Shown here piece by piece: positions 30,278 to 34,624 of a DNA stretch of 35,378 nucleotides; position 1 is the stretch's first letter, and each line of letters begins with the position of its first letter. The stretch is from Clostridia bacterium. GTDB lineage: Bacteria > Bacillota > Clostridia > Christensenellales > Borkfalkiaceae. The notes under the pieces were generated by a model. It did no database searches. It was not told the origin of the DNA and saw only the letters and a list, made by a program, of their open reading frames with translations. Position numbers and translations under genes: made by a program. The DNA is taken from positions 1-35,378 of the forward strand of contig JAFVQM010000017.1 of assembly GCA_017504795.1 (NCBI GenBank), given 5' to 3'.

Positions 30278-30360
30278 GCGGATATGGCGGAACTGGCAGA
30301 CGCGCAGGACTTAGAATCCTGTGGGAGACCGTGCAGGTTCGATTCCTGTTATCCGCACCA
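30278..30360 (+). tRNA. tRNA-Leu (anticodon UAG)
   Basis: Acceptor stem GCGGATA (30278-30284) pairs with TATCCGC near the 3' end; the anticodon arm CAGGA-CTTAGAA-TCCTG gives anticodon TAG, reading CUA; a long variable arm and T-loop TTCGATT follow; CCA is encoded. The long variable arm is as expected for tRNA-Leu. The genes to its right look accessory, and tRNA-Leu genes are frequent integration sites. Confidence 0.96.
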
Positions 30361-30411: not shown

Positions 30412-30466
30412 ACAAGAGATTATTTCGGCTTAATTGTTAAGTTAAAATAATCAAAAATTCAATGAT

Positions 30467-30493
30467 AAAAGCCGAAGTTAATCTTCGGCTTTT
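30467..30493 (-). terminator. Terminator of the three-gene operon
   Basis: An 11-bp stem AAAAGCCGAAG / CTTCGGCTTTT with a five-base loop, nine bases beyond the last stop of the minus-strand operon. Confidence 0.88.
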
Positions 30494-30501
30494 GCTTATC
30501 C

Positions 30502-30972
30502 TTATATGGAACAAAATTGTTCATCTTTATGTTCATTTCCGTCTTTATCTTGCCAAGTTAGTTCAACCTTAAATTTACGAGCAGAACCCATATGCACTAT
30601 AAGAACTTCATCAAAGCCATTTTGCGGTTCCAATTCTTCAAATGGCATTTTATCATTTATTAGCATAACACAATACTCATTTGAAATTTGAGCAGAAATA
30701 TTATATGCGGTTGTATTGCCTGCGTTATAAATTTTCAAACGATAACTATTTTTTCCAACATTTATAGCCCTTGCCTTTATAACAGACGACGATGCTTCCG
30801 TTTTTTCTTTTTCAATTTTTTCTAATTCGTATTCTTTTATTTTAGTGTCTAATTCATTGATTTTGTTTTGTAATTTTTGGGCTTTTGACGATTGAATAAT
30901 AGAGATTACTGCTATAATAACTGAAACGCCCGATAAAATTAGCCCACCCCAATTTTGTAAAAATTCTACCAT
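30502..30972 (-). CDS. Membrane-anchored coiled-coil protein of unknown function
   Basis: 156 residues, no recognised family. One N-terminal transmembrane span (about 9-27, GGLILSGVSVIIAVISIIQ), a charged coiled coil (about 28-60, rich in K/E/L with NKINELDTKIKEYELEK), then a beta-rich domain (about 64-156) with YRLKIYNAGNTTAYNI, reminiscent of an immunoglobulin-like fold. The orientation, with a short N-terminus and a basic-poor flank, cannot be settled. AAGGAG lies six bases before the ATG and eight bases separate it from the zinc-ribbon gene. Last gene of the operon. TM-plus-coiled-coil partners are common in bacterial defence operons, which is suggestive only. Confidence 0.75.
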   Translation of the reverse strand: MVEFLQNWGGLILSGVSVIIAVISIIQSSKAQKLQNKINELDTKIKEYELEKIEKEKTEASSSVIKARAINVGKNSYRLKIYNAGNTTAYNISAQISNEYCVMLINDKMPFEELEPQNGFDEVLIVHMGSARKFKVELTWQDKDGNEHKDEQFCSI

Positions 30973-30980
30973 ACAACTCC

Positions 30981-31253
30981 TTACTTAATTTTACGTAACA
31001 TTTTCTTGATTTCTTTGTCAAGTTGCTTTGTTATATCGTCCGTAATTTGCTCAACTTCATTATCAATTCTCTCTTGATTTTCATTCAAAAGTTCTTCTTT
31101 TGTAAAAATTCTACGACAGTCAGAGCATTGAACACGATTTGTTTCAAGACCATCTTTAAGTTCTTCCATAGGAACGTCCAAAGAAGAAAATTGGTCGTTA
31201 CCGCAAATAGGACATATAAGATTTATTTTTTTCTCTATGTTATTTAATTTCAT
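30981..31253 (-). CDS. Small zinc-ribbon protein with a helical tail
   Basis: 90 residues. Two CxxC knuckles, CPICG (about 14-18) and CSDC (about 43-46), enclose a short loop, a zinc-ribbon layout similar to small proteins seen beside phage or defence genes. The C-terminal half is a highly charged helix (ELLNENQERIDNEVEQI...LDKEIKKMLRKIK). It could bind nucleic acid or bridge the other two proteins; nothing in the sequence decides. Start preceded by AAGGCGG. It sits 12 bases after the effector-like gene. Confidence 0.78.
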   Translation of the reverse strand: MKLNNIEKKINLICPICGNDQFSSLDVPMEELKDGLETNRVQCSDCRRIFTKEELLNENQERIDNEVEQITDDITKQLDKEIKKMLRKIK

Positions 31254-31265
31254 AATAAACCGCCT

Positions 31266-32276
31266 TTATTTAATAGTCGCTTTTATACGTTTTATTAACT
31301 TGGATTTCAAGTCGTCCAAACCGTTATACATTACAGTTGACTTTTGTGCAACATCAAAGTGTAAAGGATTTGTTGCTTTTTCACGCTCATCATAAAGGTG
31401 TATAACTTCTTTCCCTAATGCGTGTGCATATCCTGCTTCGTAATACGCCCCGTCGCAACGCAAGCTTAAATCTACAACGACAAATTTAGAAAGTTGAATT
31501 TGATGAAAAATCTCAGGCATAATCCAATTATTTGTTTGGTGCTCCGTCATATCGCAAGGGGTAAAACCACATTCGCTAATAGCATTTTGAATTGCTTGAA
31601 TACGGTCTTGATTATCGGCAAATTTTATTGCAATAAATGCTTGCTTACTATTTTCTTTTTCTTTTGCTTTTTGGAATTTTTCTATTGCATATTCGGTAAG
31701 AACAAAGAAAAGTTTATTATCGTAAGCGTGAACTTGCTTGAAATAACCTTTGCTAAAAAGTTGCGTGCGCATAAAGTTTTCACTTTGATTAAATGCACCT
31801 TTTCCGAAATGTTTTGGGATAAATAGTAAATAACTTAAATCATACTCAAAGAATTGAAACTCTTGACCGTAATATTGCTGTTTACTTAAGAAATAATTGA
31901 TAACATAGTCGTTTATTTCTGAAATATTTTTAGGATACCATTCTTCAATCATTTCATAGCTAATATACTTGCAGATTTGATTTGTAAAAGAATCTCCGAT
32001 TTCCTTGCATTTGTTAATATCCCCAAAGAAATATGTAATAGGGGTTTCTTTTAGCATTGTTTCGTGATGATATAAATAAGTGGCAATCTTAAACGAAAGG
32101 GTTTCGTTTTCGTTAATGTCGGACGGAGTAATTAAAACATATCTATAATTATCAACACAAAACAATAACGGGCAATCAAAAATAATAGCACTACCATACA
32201 TTTCAAATTTATCATTTGAAAACACGGGGTCGGATTTATACGCTGTCGAATTTATTCTGCGAAAATTATTGCTCAT
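31266..32276 (-). CDS. Protein with C-terminal TIR/nucleoside 2-deoxyribosyltransferase-like domain, putative effector
   Basis: 336 residues. The C-terminal 130 residues have the pattern of the nucleoside 2-deoxyribosyltransferase/TIR-like fold: a first strand AFIAIKFAD, then GFTPCD, IMPEIFHQIQLSKFVVVDLS, YYEAGYAHALGKEVIHLY with the likely catalytic Glu in YYEAGYAH, and a final PLHFDV segment. Relatives degrade nucleotides or NAD-type molecules, and several serve as abortive effectors in anti-phage systems. The N-terminal 200 residues are unassigned; LTEYAIEKFQKAKEKENSKQ just before the fold is like the end of a winged-helix region. An upstream ATG at 32315 is rejected: the promoter -10 lies within that extension and AGGAG sits seven bases before the ATG at 32276. 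First gene of the operon. Confidence 0.78.
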   Translation of the reverse strand: MSNNFRRINSTAYKSDPVFSNDKFEMYGSAIIFDCPLLFCVDNYRYVLITPSDINENETLSFKIATYLYHHETMLKETPITYFFGDINKCKEIGDSFTNQICKYISYEMIEEWYPKNISEINDYVINYFLSKQQYYGQEFQFFEYDLSYLLFIPKHFGKGAFNQSENFMRTQLFSKGYFKQVHAYDNKLFFVLTEYAIEKFQKAKEKENSKQAFIAIKFADNQDRIQAIQNAISECGFTPCDMTEHQTNNWIMPEIFHQIQLSKFVVVDLSLRCDGAYYEAGYAHALGKEVIHLYDEREKATNPLHFDVAQKSTVMYNGLDDLKSKLIKRIKATIK

Positions 32277-32303
32277 TTGTTTACTCCTAATTTGATTATT
32301 GAT

Positions 32304-32332
32304 ATTATACAACATTTAGGGTTAAAAGTCAA
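32304..32332 (-). promoter_or_regulatory. Promoter of the three-gene operon
   Basis: On the minus strand: TTGACT (32332-32327), 17-bp spacer, perfect TATAAT (32309-32304); transcript start near 32297, followed by AGGAG and the ATG at 32276. It shows that these genes are expressed independently of the restriction genes upstream. Confidence 0.82.
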
Positions 32333-32393
32333 GTTGGCTATACCACATCTTGTGTTTATTGCGATAAATTTTGCACAATATATCGCAGAATAT

Positions 32394-32423
32394 AAAAAGC
32401 CGAGAAATGAATCTCGGCTTTTT
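32394..32423 (-). terminator. Terminator of the type III restriction-modification operon
   Basis: A perfect 12-bp stem AAAAAGCCGAGA / TCTCGGCTTTTT with a six-base loop, just after the res stop. The stem resembles that at 30467. Confidence 0.92.
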
Positions 32424-32425
32424 GC

Positions 32426-34624
32426 TTACTTAAATACTTCGCTTAAAATTTTCCAATCGTCAGAGTGTATATCTTCGTTGTAATTGTCGGTGCAGATACA
32501 AAGTTCTTCGCTTTGTTTATCGAAGCGGACGAAACCGCCTTTAAGCCCGTATTTTGTGAGATACGCTTTCAAAACGTCAAACTTCTTCGGTGAGAAAATA
32601 TCAATGTCTTCGCTTGCACCCGTTTTATCAAAACCGCCTTTTGTTTCGATAATCCAAACTTCGCTTTTTACCGATACGATATAGTCGGGATAGAAAAGTT
32701 TTTGACGGTTAGCGTTATCAAGATAAACGATAGAAAAATATTCATCGCCTTTATCGCCGTTTTTGTATATCCAATCAACAGCGGAACAACTTTCGCAGAA
32801 TTTTTCAAACTTCTTTTCGGACGAAGAACGTGGCTCGGCAGACATTAAATATTCGCCATAAACGTTCTTTTCGCTGATAGTTTGCACTTTACTTTGTAGA
32901 TCGTATGTAAACAACGTTGATTGTGGAATAGTAAAAGACTTTTCAGATACCATATCAAGCGTAAGGGATAATTGACTTAATTGCACCGCCATTGCTTCAC
33001 GACATATACGGCGCAAATAGTCGAAATTGTTGATTACAAAAGCATATAATTCTCTCGGCGCAAGTGCAACTACCTTTTCACGATAGTTAAACTTTTCGCC
33101 AAATAGTTTACCGATAATGGTGTTCATATAATTATACGGTATACCAATTTCCAAACCGATACGACCTACACGGTTATGATATTCACGTCCGTGTGTAGTG
33201 GTAGAAATAGGCTCGGTAATTTTTATAGCGTTTAACTTGTCCTTTTCAGAAAGTTCCGCAAAAACGACTACGCTACCTGAAAGGGTGTATCTTACAATAT
33301 TTTCAGAAAATTCAAATCCTTTACTTTCTAAACGAGTTTTATTTTCTTTCTTATTCCCCGTGAGCGCAAATTCTTTTTTAATATACTGTGCAATAGCAGT
33401 CAACGCTTTGCGCGGATCACGTAAATCCGTAATCATAGTACGTTGCTGTTTAGTAAGCGTAAACGTTTTGTATTCGTTTTTCAAAAACAAAGTTTTTGCT
33501 TCTAACGCCGACTTGCCAAGACTTGCTTTTACGCCCTGCGTGAACTTGCCGTCAAAGGTGTAAAGATAGCAACTGTCAAGCAAATCGTTTTCATAGTGTT
33601 TTGCTTCGGGCATACGGCGAATACGACCAATCGTTTGAACTTCAAACGTTTCGTCCATATTTTCACGCAGTTTTACAAGGATATGTGCACGTGGACAATC
33701 CCAACCCGTTGCAACGGCTTGTTTCATAATAACGGCAACGCTTTCGGCGTTATTGTTTGAAATTCCGTCAACGTTTTCGTGCCTACCCGAAAGCCATATA
33801 GCAAGCGTTTCCGCTTCCGTCGTAACGCCTTTACTTTCAAACCATTTTTCAACAGTTTCGCAAAGTGCGTCGGAATTATTCGGCAATTGCACTACAATTA
33901 AGGGGTTAATATCAAGTTCACGTTGCAAGAAAAGGGAGCGCAATTCTTGTTGCTTTGCATACGCCTTTTCTAAAAGATAATGCGTTTGATTTTCCGTTTC
34001 AATTACTTGTGGGAAGTTTTCGTTGATTACAAGCAATTTTTTAATAAGACCTTCTGCAATAACGTCTTCTTCGCTAACTTCAATAAGTTTTGCCGTTTTA
34101 GTTACAATGGGCGTAGCCGAACAGCGTATAATTTTATCCGTTTTGAAAAGTTGGATAATCGCATCAGATCTTTCCGTAAAGTTTTGGTGGCTTTCGTCAA
34201 TGATAATCTTAAAAATAATGCCATTATTAAAAGCCTTGTCTATCCACTCTAAAAAGTTGGTGCGTTCGCTATCTTTTAATGCGTTGTTTCCTTTTTTAGT
34301 GAGTTTTTCCCAATTTATAAAACAACAGTCGTTTTCACTAAAACCGCTTGTCATAACGTCTGCAAGAAGTTTCGTTTGCGCATTGTGGATATATTTATCC
34401 ATTTTTGCCTTGCTTTGTTCTTCCAAGTTGCCCTTGCCAGGTGTAAGCCAAACAAAAACCGTTTTAGCGTGTCCTTTTATGTATTCGTCCATAAAATGTG
34501 TAAGAATAATAGTTTTGCCACTTCCCGTAGGACTTTTGAGGACAATTTCACGGCAAGGCTCGTCCATACTTTCTAATAGACTTTTTATAGCATTTAATTG
34601 AAAGTTTGCTAAATTTATCGTCAT
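32426..34624 (-). CDS. res: Type III restriction enzyme, Res (helicase-nuclease) subunit
   Basis: 732 residues. An SF2 helicase/translocase: motif I SPTGSGKT (31-38), motif II DESH (143-146), motif III SAT (169-171), motif VI QTIGRIRRMP (330-339). The C-terminal PD-(D/E)xK nuclease site is seen as PD (646-647), then E660-T-K662. The subunit works with Mod: the complex binds an asymmetric site, travels or slides on DNA using ATP, and cuts when two unmethylated sites meet. It is shorter than EcoP1I Res (about 970) but has all key motifs, so appears intact. It starts four bases after the mod stop. Confidence 0.9.
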   Translation of the reverse strand: MTINLANFQLNAIKSLLESMDEPCREIVLKSPTGSGKTIILTHFMDEYIKGHAKTVFVWLTPGKGNLEEQSKAKMDKYIHNAQTKLLADVMTSGFSENDCCFINWEKLTKKGNNALKDSERTNFLEWIDKAFNNGIIFKIIIDESHQNFTERSDAIIQLFKTDKIIRCSATPIVTKTAKLIEVSEEDVIAEGLIKKLLVINENFPQVIETENQTHYLLEKAYAKQQELRSLFLQRELDINPLIVVQLPNNSDALCETVEKWFESKGVTTEAETLAIWLSGRHENVDGISNNNAESVAVIMKQAVATGWDCPRAHILVKLRENMDETFEVQTIGRIRRMPEAKHYENDLLDSCYLYTFDGKFTQGVKASLGKSALEAKTLFLKNEYKTFTLTKQQRTMITDLRDPRKALTAIAQYIKKEFALTGNKKENKTRLESKGFEFSENIVRYTLSGSVVVFAELSEKDKLNAIKITEPISTTTHGREYHNRVGRIGLEIGIPYNYMNTIIGKLFGEKFNYREKVVALAPRELYAFVINNFDYLRRICREAMAVQLSQLSLTLDMVSEKSFTIPQSTLFTYDLQSKVQTISEKNVYGEYLMSAEPRSSSEKKFEKFCESCSAVDWIYKNGDKGDEYFSIVYLDNANRQKLFYPDYIVSVKSEVWIIETKGGFDKTGASEDIDIFSPKKFDVLKAYLTKYGLKGGFVRFDKQSEELCICTDNYNEDIHSDDWKILSEVFK

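Follow-up and report, generated by a model that had tools for sequence, protein, structure and literature searches.

Is a compact group of three genes beside a type III restriction-modification (R-M) operon a dedicated anti-phage system, or have its parts been brought together locally? The question is raised by the contig JAFVQM010000017.1 of a Clostridia bacterium of the family Borkfalkiaceae (GenBank assembly GCA_017504795.1), of which positions 1 to 35,378 were analysed (the whole of this stretch is called the window). Between a tRNA-Leu gene and the R-M genes, a trio spanning 32276-30502 of the minus strand encodes a protein with a nucleoside deoxyribosyltransferase (NDT)-like domain (gene 1), a zinc-ribbon protein (gene 2) and a membrane-type protein (gene 3). 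The original prediction, drawn from the letters of the DNA, described a self-contained operon with the usual look of an anti-phage system, in a combination that it did not recognise as a named one.

Here we show that relatives of gene 1 occur elsewhere without relatives of genes 2 and 3 in the surrounding stretches examined, and that the latter travel as a pair on plasmids, prophages and other mobile elements. The trio does not look like a conserved unit, and appears instead to consist of two defence-type modules joined locally.

Co-occurrence of the three genes in other genomes

Relatives of gene 1 were collected from a genome scan (149 stretches holding 101 relatives, of which the best 80 were kept) and a viral-contig scan (107 stretches, 7 relatives), giving 87 loci, all with an open reading frame (ORF). 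Up to 8 kb on each side of the gene were examined, less at contig ends, and a gene was present on both sides in 75 of the 87. A second sample comprised the 11 best of 19 other loci from a profile (hidden Markov model) search of the order; two of these, L198 and L199, lie on the same contigs as L042 and L050 of the first sample, leaving nine new loci and 96 distinct loci overall.

Within the stretches examined, neither the zinc-ribbon nor the membrane gene was found at any of the 87 NDT loci or the 11 loci of the second sample, and nine of the 11 distinct settings of the zinc-ribbon/membrane pair had no NDT-family gene in the stretch examined. Because the partner genes are absent from the stretches around 96 other NDT loci, the trio is apparently not a conserved unit; the co-occurrence of its homologues elsewhere, for which the original prediction had proposed to search, was seen at none of them. 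The exception among the other pair settings is L116 (1428-3721), where an integrase-like gene, a ribbon gene, a gene 3 homologue and a gene for a coiled-coil membrane-type protein are followed, within 1 kb of the pair, by a gene for an AbiJ_NTD5-NDT protein. Two of 11 pair settings with an NDT-type gene are too few to separate recruitment from chance in defence-rich islands.

A profile search across 200 genomes of the order detected the gene 1 family in 20, the window's own genome among them. A search of 50,697 phage records returned no relative of gene 1 or gene 3 at the limits used, and a single-protein scan of viral contigs likewise found no relative.

Gene 1 family and conserved residues

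Of the 87 relatives, 76 reached a length of 280 aa and the other 11 were too short; the window protein was aligned with 73 of the 76 (alignment A4, 74 sequences), after manual removal of L066, L071 and L076. Pfam Nuc_deoxyrib_tr (PF05014) was matched by 71 of the 74 members at E up to 0.01, the other Pfam matches being DUF4062 in 19 members and TIR_2 in one. The window protein itself gave no TIR match in Pfam at E up to 1, and the PADLOC TIR effector profile reached it at E 0.0031 only. Judged by these profiles, gene 1 is an NDT/DNPH1-type protein and not a TIR protein. The NDT half of the NDT/TIR-like domain described by the original prediction was thus upheld, together with its YYEAGYAH motif (Glu280 in 74 of 74); the TIR label was dropped, the TIR profile being matched by one of 74 members against 71 for NDT, and gene 1 showing no similarity with the TIR-type protein encoded at L014.

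Compared with solved structures, the family profile gave Rcl/DNPH1 as its top match (E 5.5e-4), with YYEAGYA lying over the YELGRA motif; a search of the Protein Data Bank (PDB) with the window protein alone found none. We take NDT and DNPH1 to be DrHyd members. The N-terminal half of the profile matched two MAT1 sequences (8e-4 and 9e-4), which we take as chance, and a predicted transcriptional regulator (0.0024, residues 95-192), which hints at a helical or winged-helix middle part. CxxC pairs within the first 100 residues number two in 38 of the 74 members, one in 15 and none in 21, and the nearest relatives of the window protein (L019-L024, L099) are without them.

Six residues are invariant in all 74 members (Glu280, Tyr278, Gly282, Tyr283, Phe214 and Ile260), and others nearly so (H306, F307 and D308 in 73 each, Gln311 in 67, Glu255 in 65). 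Glu280 aligns with the catalytic-type Glu of DNPH1 in a helix motif of the form (Y/M)E(L/A)G(Y/R)A; the Glu of this motif is catalytic in NDT and DNPH1 (PMC11204291). Five proteins matching PF05014 (of seven such matches outside the window's own genome; four of the five lie above the cut-off) were compared with the family and aligned at the Glu motif (E 1.8e-4, probability 48%). All five carry a Tyr near their start, as against Phe214 in 74 of 74 family members, an equivalence drawn from low-confidence global alignments, one of which (L173) sets Phe214 opposite the Tyr. PMC11204291 also states that NADase TIR domains usually have Phe or Ala at this place, and that the Tyr-bearing enzymes NDT and DNPH1 show high specificity for 2'-deoxy substrates. 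Because Phe214 seems to stand where NDT and DNPH1 have Tyr, we lean towards cleavage of NAD+ or a ribonucleotide. According to PMC9503650, TIR, DrHyd and SLOG form one clade, and DrHyd NADase effectors are named there.

Genomic setting of gene 1 relatives

Seven of the 87 loci (L026, L030, L045, L059, L060, L064 and L074) have the NDT gene flanked by mod and res of a type III system, all on one strand, with no other gene between mod and res in L026, L059 and L074, and with a 4-base overlap of the mod end and the NDT start in L064 and L074. An eighth locus, L082, begins at a contig end and has res downstream of the NDT gene. Other defence genes recur singly or in small numbers: HsdR directly upstream of the NDT gene in three loci (L076, L086, L094), MmeI- or Eco57I-type enzymes in three (L029, L054, L104), AlwI in L052, DndB in L019 and AbiH in L023. 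No paper on NDT genes inside R-M operons was among the literature matches listed.

The operonic neighbourhood was compared with more distant genes by setting 78 of 88 operonic neighbours against 78 genes drawn from 353 lying at least five places away (ten neighbours were dropped, being shorter than 90 aa, from loci L042, L066 or L071, or NDT paralogues); where the locus is an R-M island, the distant genes make an imperfect control for this test. In Pfam (the best 25 of 81 families near and of 65 far), ResIII was matched by 9 of 78 near and 3 of 78 far genes, and N6_N4_Mtase by six near genes and none far among the matches listed, where the far set also held DNA_methylase twice and N6_Mtase, MethyltransfD12 and McrBC once each. 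Among the best 25 of 241 PADLOC models in the near set, methyltransferase models lead (a type II model in six genes, type III models in five), followed by REase_III in four and type I and IIG restriction enzymes in three each; among the best 25 of 142 in the far set, no model exceeded two. In the second sample, type I R-M genes adjoin L207, with an HsdM-like gene directly upstream of the NDT gene, L198 lies in an ATPase/helicase group, and L201, L203 and L208 stand beside recombinase, ParA/ParB or integrase genes.

Some loci have further features of their own. In five of the seven type III loci (L026, L030, L045, L059, L060) a 215-aa-type gene lies upstream of mod, accompanied in four by a large helicase gene; such loci possibly represent one larger defence system. 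At L014 (8390-10200; the same as L032), a TIR-type protein is encoded directly downstream of the NDT-family gene, and the island around them also contains type I R-M-like, DUF262-type and methylase genes, as read from translations. On the Leptospira plasmid p4 (L108:1982-6794), the NDT-family gene is flanked by genes for a SEFIR-domain protein and a methyltransferase. Near the NDT-family genes at L041:1640-2533, L198:3259-4155 and L015:6083-6979 lie genes for other proteins that combine an N-terminal anchor with a soluble part and are not detectably homologous to gene 3. The idea that gene 3 is a homologue of the membrane proteins near the NDT genes of L014, L015 and L041 was rejected for lack of significant similarity, L015 showing only a short N-G-x-x-x-A-x-N match (E 0.042).

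Distribution of the zinc-ribbon/membrane pair

A gene 2 homologue stands directly before a gene 3 homologue in 11 distinct settings, with a gap of -4 to +22 bases (8 in the window). Besides the window, they comprise a Paenisporosarcina plasmid (L106), near HamA and DUF262 genes; Serratia (L107) and Pantoea (L112); Enterobacter kobei (L110), near genes annotated as S-4TM effector and TIR; filamentous prophages of E. coli with matching viral contigs (L117, L126, L128 and copies); E. coli plasmids (L142/L144); pMOL30 (L143); R997 (L140); L116; and L121. In R997 the pair is flanked by a McrC/restriction endonuclease group and mobH. According to PMC5561048, R997 is an integrative and conjugative element (ICE) of the SXT/R391 type, with R-M genes in its hotspot 5; we take the site of the pair to be this hotspot.

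Among 72,556 plasmid records, gene 3 matched 89, including 82 with a conjugative typing, and the first five plasmids examined all had a small ribbon gene directly ahead of it, gene 3 itself being only a fragment in L111. Among 5,426 E. coli genomes, a Serratia-like allele of the pair occurs in 28 and the plasmid allele in 104 (79 over at least 80% of the query), with 74 of 120 places on plasmids. In the class, the gene 3 profile was matched in 4 of 291 genomes, and in the phylum the zinc-ribbon profile in 9 of 398, the window's own genome included in both; the other eight ribbon matches were weak (E 1e-4 to 9e-4). Two of these loci were read (L131, L134) and neither is a pair, and the short stretches examined around L135 and L138, two of the eight that encode proteins of similar size, contained no gene 3 match. 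Further loci that do not count as pairs are L124, lying too close to a contig end; L119, ending with the ribbon gene; L127, whose ribbon genes are annotated as frameshifted; and L123, L145 and L141, in which no ribbon gene was detected.

By this distribution, genes 2 and 3 are an independent two-gene cassette of mobile elements. The ECs_2282 gene (NF047912) and its neighbour in E. coli have the same order and spacing and represent the same pair; three listed E. coli records also name the neighbour's place DUF8453. The ECs_2282 family is a named one for which no characterisation was found, and a literature search under the names of genes 2 and 3 found no paper.

On the E. coli EC5502 chromosome (L127), matches to the pair occur at 16 places, and the 25 kb opened there consist of tandem filamentous-prophage copies with many annotated frameshifts, possibly an assembly effect.

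Protein features and selection

The two-knuckle zinc ribbon proposed for gene 2 is corroborated by NF047912, matched at 58.5 bits against a curated cut-off of 37, and its cysteines (CPIC...CSDC; C14, C17, C43 and C46) are invariant in the six sequences of alignment A3. Gene 3 matches phrog_6723 (1.1e-21), and its profile found nothing significant in the PDB. Its predicted membrane span was recovered at residues 8-26 (mean hydropathy 2.34); the positive residues behind the segment suggest a soluble part on the inner side of the membrane. The coiled coil and the beta domain that the original prediction described rest on our reading of the sequence.

Both pair genes are clearly under purifying selection, as judged from synonymous (dS) and non-synonymous (dN) divergence, because dN lies well below dS: for gene 3, dN is 0.062 and dS 1.004 between L107 and L117, and 0.037 and 0.366 between L107 and L110; for gene 2, 0.070 and 0.417 between L107 and L110. 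Many other comparisons of the two genes were saturated in dS.

Organization of the locus

The features of the locus are collected in Table 1. The three minus-strand ORFs (31266-32315, 30981-31253 and 30502-30972) are intact and in tandem, with intergenic gaps of 12 and 8 bases. The 349-aa start of gene 1 at 32315 falls in the promoter spacer, downstream of the -35 box and upstream of the -10 box; since the longer form would begin inside the promoter, the in-frame ATG at 32276, which has AGGAG 7 bases ahead, is the likely start and gives 336 aa.

Table 1. Coordinates of the trio and its surroundings in the window
Feature	Position	Strand	Description or basis
Gene 1	31266..32276	-	336 aa; N-terminal region without CxxC pairs (many relatives carry a ribbon there) and C-terminal NDT/DNPH1-like (DrHyd) domain, YYEAGYA, Glu280
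Gene 2	30981..31253	-	90 aa; zinc ribbon of two knuckles, member of the ECs_2282 family (NF047912); leading gene of the pair
Gene 3	30502..30972	-	156-aa relative of phrog_6723; membrane segment at the N-terminus, then a stretch resembling a coiled coil and a soluble C-terminal domain; following gene of the pair
Trio promoter, TTGACT-17-TATAAT	32304..32332	-	Pattern scan, Markov simulation
Terminator-like, near-symmetric hairpin behind the trio	30466..30494	-	Pattern scan, fold versus shuffles
Hairpin and T-run behind res, between R-M genes and trio	32394..32424	-	Sequence, fold versus shuffles
Res, type III restriction subunit	32426..34624	-	PF04851 1.6e-18, PADLOC
Mod, type III modification subunit, C-terminal part; frame open to contig end	34629..35378	-	Pfam, PADLOC
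tRNA-Leu (TAG)	30278..30360	+	Borders the accessory stretch; outside the operon

The promoter agrees with 11 of 12 consensus positions, a score reached in 25 of 5000 first-order Markov simulations of a 150-base intergenic stretch; a wider scan gave nine promoter-like sites against a shuffle mean of 10.4, no excess, so that only this best site stands out. The hairpins behind the trio (30455-30505, z -4.8 against shuffles) and behind res (32385-32430, z -5.6) are both strong, the T-run of the former on the minus strand being short (TTTTATC) and the pattern scan having reported it on the plus strand only. Because of its own promoter and these two hairpins, the trio looks like a transcription unit separate from res; apart from the moved start of gene 1, the predicted features of such a unit (promoter, tight spacing and a terminator-like hairpin) are borne out. 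The neighbouring genes also proved to be type III R-M genes as described, Res having a ResIII helicase domain (PF04851, 67.6 bits, cut-off 22.5) and the Mod protein, truncated by the contig end, an N6/N4 methylase domain (PF01555, 40.2 bits, cut-off 26.7).

Nine genomes of the genus, the window's own included, were compared at this site. The deoC-tRNA-Leu neighbourhood is common to four other congeners over most of its length. Past the tRNA, G026 and G074 have one or two other genes and then, after 1.2 to 1.8 kb, a shared core-like block (PHP-type, transporter, lgt-type and response regulator genes, on to nusG and ribosomal proteins; labels read from translations), the comparison with the window's genome covering the tRNA site. 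In G054 different genes occupy this place, and the contig of G008 stops 0.9 kb beyond the tRNA. This fits the placement of the trio in an accessory, defence-type stretch beside tRNA-Leu.

Discussion

The explanation that we favour, and to which we would give about an even chance, is a locally assembled operon in which an NDT-type, infection-triggered effector and a membrane-associated exclusion cassette stand beside type III restriction. Gene 1 would encode an abortive-type effector with the N-terminal region as its sensor; Glu280 would cleave the N-glycosidic bond of NAD+ or of a (deoxy)nucleotide, and the enzyme would stop the cell when restriction fails, acting as a backstop to it. We propose this role because of the family and its active-site residues, while trigger and substrate are what we infer. 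The zinc-ribbon protein may contact incoming nucleic acid or a partner at the inner membrane face, carried there by the anchored coiled-coil protein, with superinfection exclusion or plasmid/phage competition as the outcome; this role is suggested because of genomic context and an inovirus precedent, two of ten inovirus proteins tested having limited infection by other phages (PMC6813254). The shared promoter would switch on both modules jointly, adding two layers to the neighbouring type III restriction. The anti-phage look of the locus stands in so far as relatives of both modules recur near restriction or abortive-infection genes; it does not extend to one conserved three-gene system.

Several observations weigh against this explanation. 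In the window, gene 1 is not part of the R-M operon and has a separate promoter, and its protein matches PF05014 at E 1e-4 and 22.9 bits, under the curated cut-off of 28.8. The enrichment of R-M genes among operonic NDT neighbours is only modest. Six of the 11 second-sample loci (L199, L200, L202, L204, L205 and L206), five of which are among the nine new ones, lie among apparently housekeeping genes, judged from translations, a setting that the original prediction had named as a sign against defence. In two related genomes (L205:475-2582 and L206:5035-7151) the NDT-family gene is divergent from a dGTPase-like gene, near dnaG-/rpoD-like genes, again by their translations, an arrangement that argues against a purely mobile defence role of the family. 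As far as such neighbourhoods tell, the gene 1 family is often, not always, linked to defence. On the side of the pair, gene 3 stands without a detectable ribbon gene in L123 and L145, plasmid copies are broken in L111 and L141 (in the latter the gene 3 relative is interrupted by stops, and no ribbon match was found), and the hydrophobic segment is weak in five of ten gene 3 homologues measured (maximum 1.44-1.57).

Two alternatives concern one module each. Gene 1 may be a DNPH1-like nucleotide-sanitising enzyme that removes modified (deoxy)nucleoside monophosphates, from the turnover of hypermodified phage DNA or from the host pool, and not a killer. DNPH1/Rcl are its closest solved relatives, and the two copies beside a dGTPase-like gene would suit such a role; we nevertheless think it unlikely, given the invariant Phe214 in place of the Tyr of NDT and DNPH1 (PMC11204291; the equivalence comes from a low-confidence global alignment) and a patchy spread, 20 of 200 genomes of the order, unlike that of a general housekeeping enzyme. 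That genes 2 and 3 serve mobile elements as a toxin-antitoxin or maintenance module, in which gene 3 would encode a membrane toxin neutralised by the zinc-ribbon protein, seems improbable to a like degree. The two genes are small, mostly overlap and are found on conjugative plasmids, an ICE and prophages, and gene 2 is weakly similar to the MqsA-type family (E 0.0057); against this stand the loci in which gene 3 has no detectable ribbon gene and the EC5502 chromosome, where zinc-ribbon copies annotated as frameshifted lie beside an intact gene 3, if this is not sequencing error.

The readings that unite the modules fare worse. A dedicated three-gene anti-phage system, in which the ribbon senses, the NDT enzyme kills and the membrane protein anchors the complex, would account for the common promoter and tight spacing, and L116 offers a second locus with the pair and an AbiJ_NTD5-NDT protein; the absence of the pair from the stretches examined at all 87 NDT loci and all 11 of the second sample, and of NDT-family genes from those at nine of 11 pair settings, makes it quite unlikely. 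We would put at a similarly low level the idea that the pair is an undescribed mobile exclusion system, common to filamentous phages, ICEs and conjugative plasmids, and brings NDT-type NAD+/nucleotide hydrolases to the membrane, the window and L116 being two independent captures; if true, it would imply a membrane-tethered, R-M-linked NADase defence. Least probable is that gene 1 is no effector and instead regulates the R-M enzymes, for instance by controlling restriction, or forms a subunit of them, since the genes between mod and res and the two mod/NDT overlaps are set against invariant active-site-type residues and against partners of type I, IIG, III and Dnd or no R-M gene nearby, hence no single enzyme partner.

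The locally assembled operon can also be placed among known systems. Gene 1 shares with PF05014 and DNPH1, its best solved-structure match, the motif around the catalytic Glu; it differs in being about twice as long, in its N-terminal ribbon/helical region and C-terminal HFDxxQ motif, in a Phe at what seems to be the Tyr position of the ordinary enzymes, and in a window protein under the curated cut-off. Retron-Eco1 (Ec86) likewise has a stand-alone NDT-like effector, and the system acts by NAD+ hydrolysis (PMC12405507); the gene 1 family profile has no detectable similarity to the BL21 effector (hhalign probability 0.1%). With that result, and no reverse transcriptase match in the five window genes scanned, gene 1 as an Ec86-type retron effector was ruled out, and Retron-Eco1 is the nearest working parallel, not a detectable relative. 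The L116 protein resembles gene 1 in its C-terminal domain, a relationship supported by hhalign (E 1e-11), and adjoins the same kind of pair; it differs in its AbiJ_NTD5 N-terminal domain and length of 248 aa. No system model in PADLOC 2.0.0 joins genes 1-3: gene 3 has no match, and genes 1 and 2 match different models weakly.

What remains are two separable modules, one R-M-linked and one a mobile gene pair. The pair, carried by conjugative plasmids and E. coli filamentous prophages under purifying selection and with no role found for it, is an easy target for tests of phage and plasmid exclusion. Ribbon-plus-NDT proteins encoded between mod and res would link restriction to nucleotide-based cell arrest.

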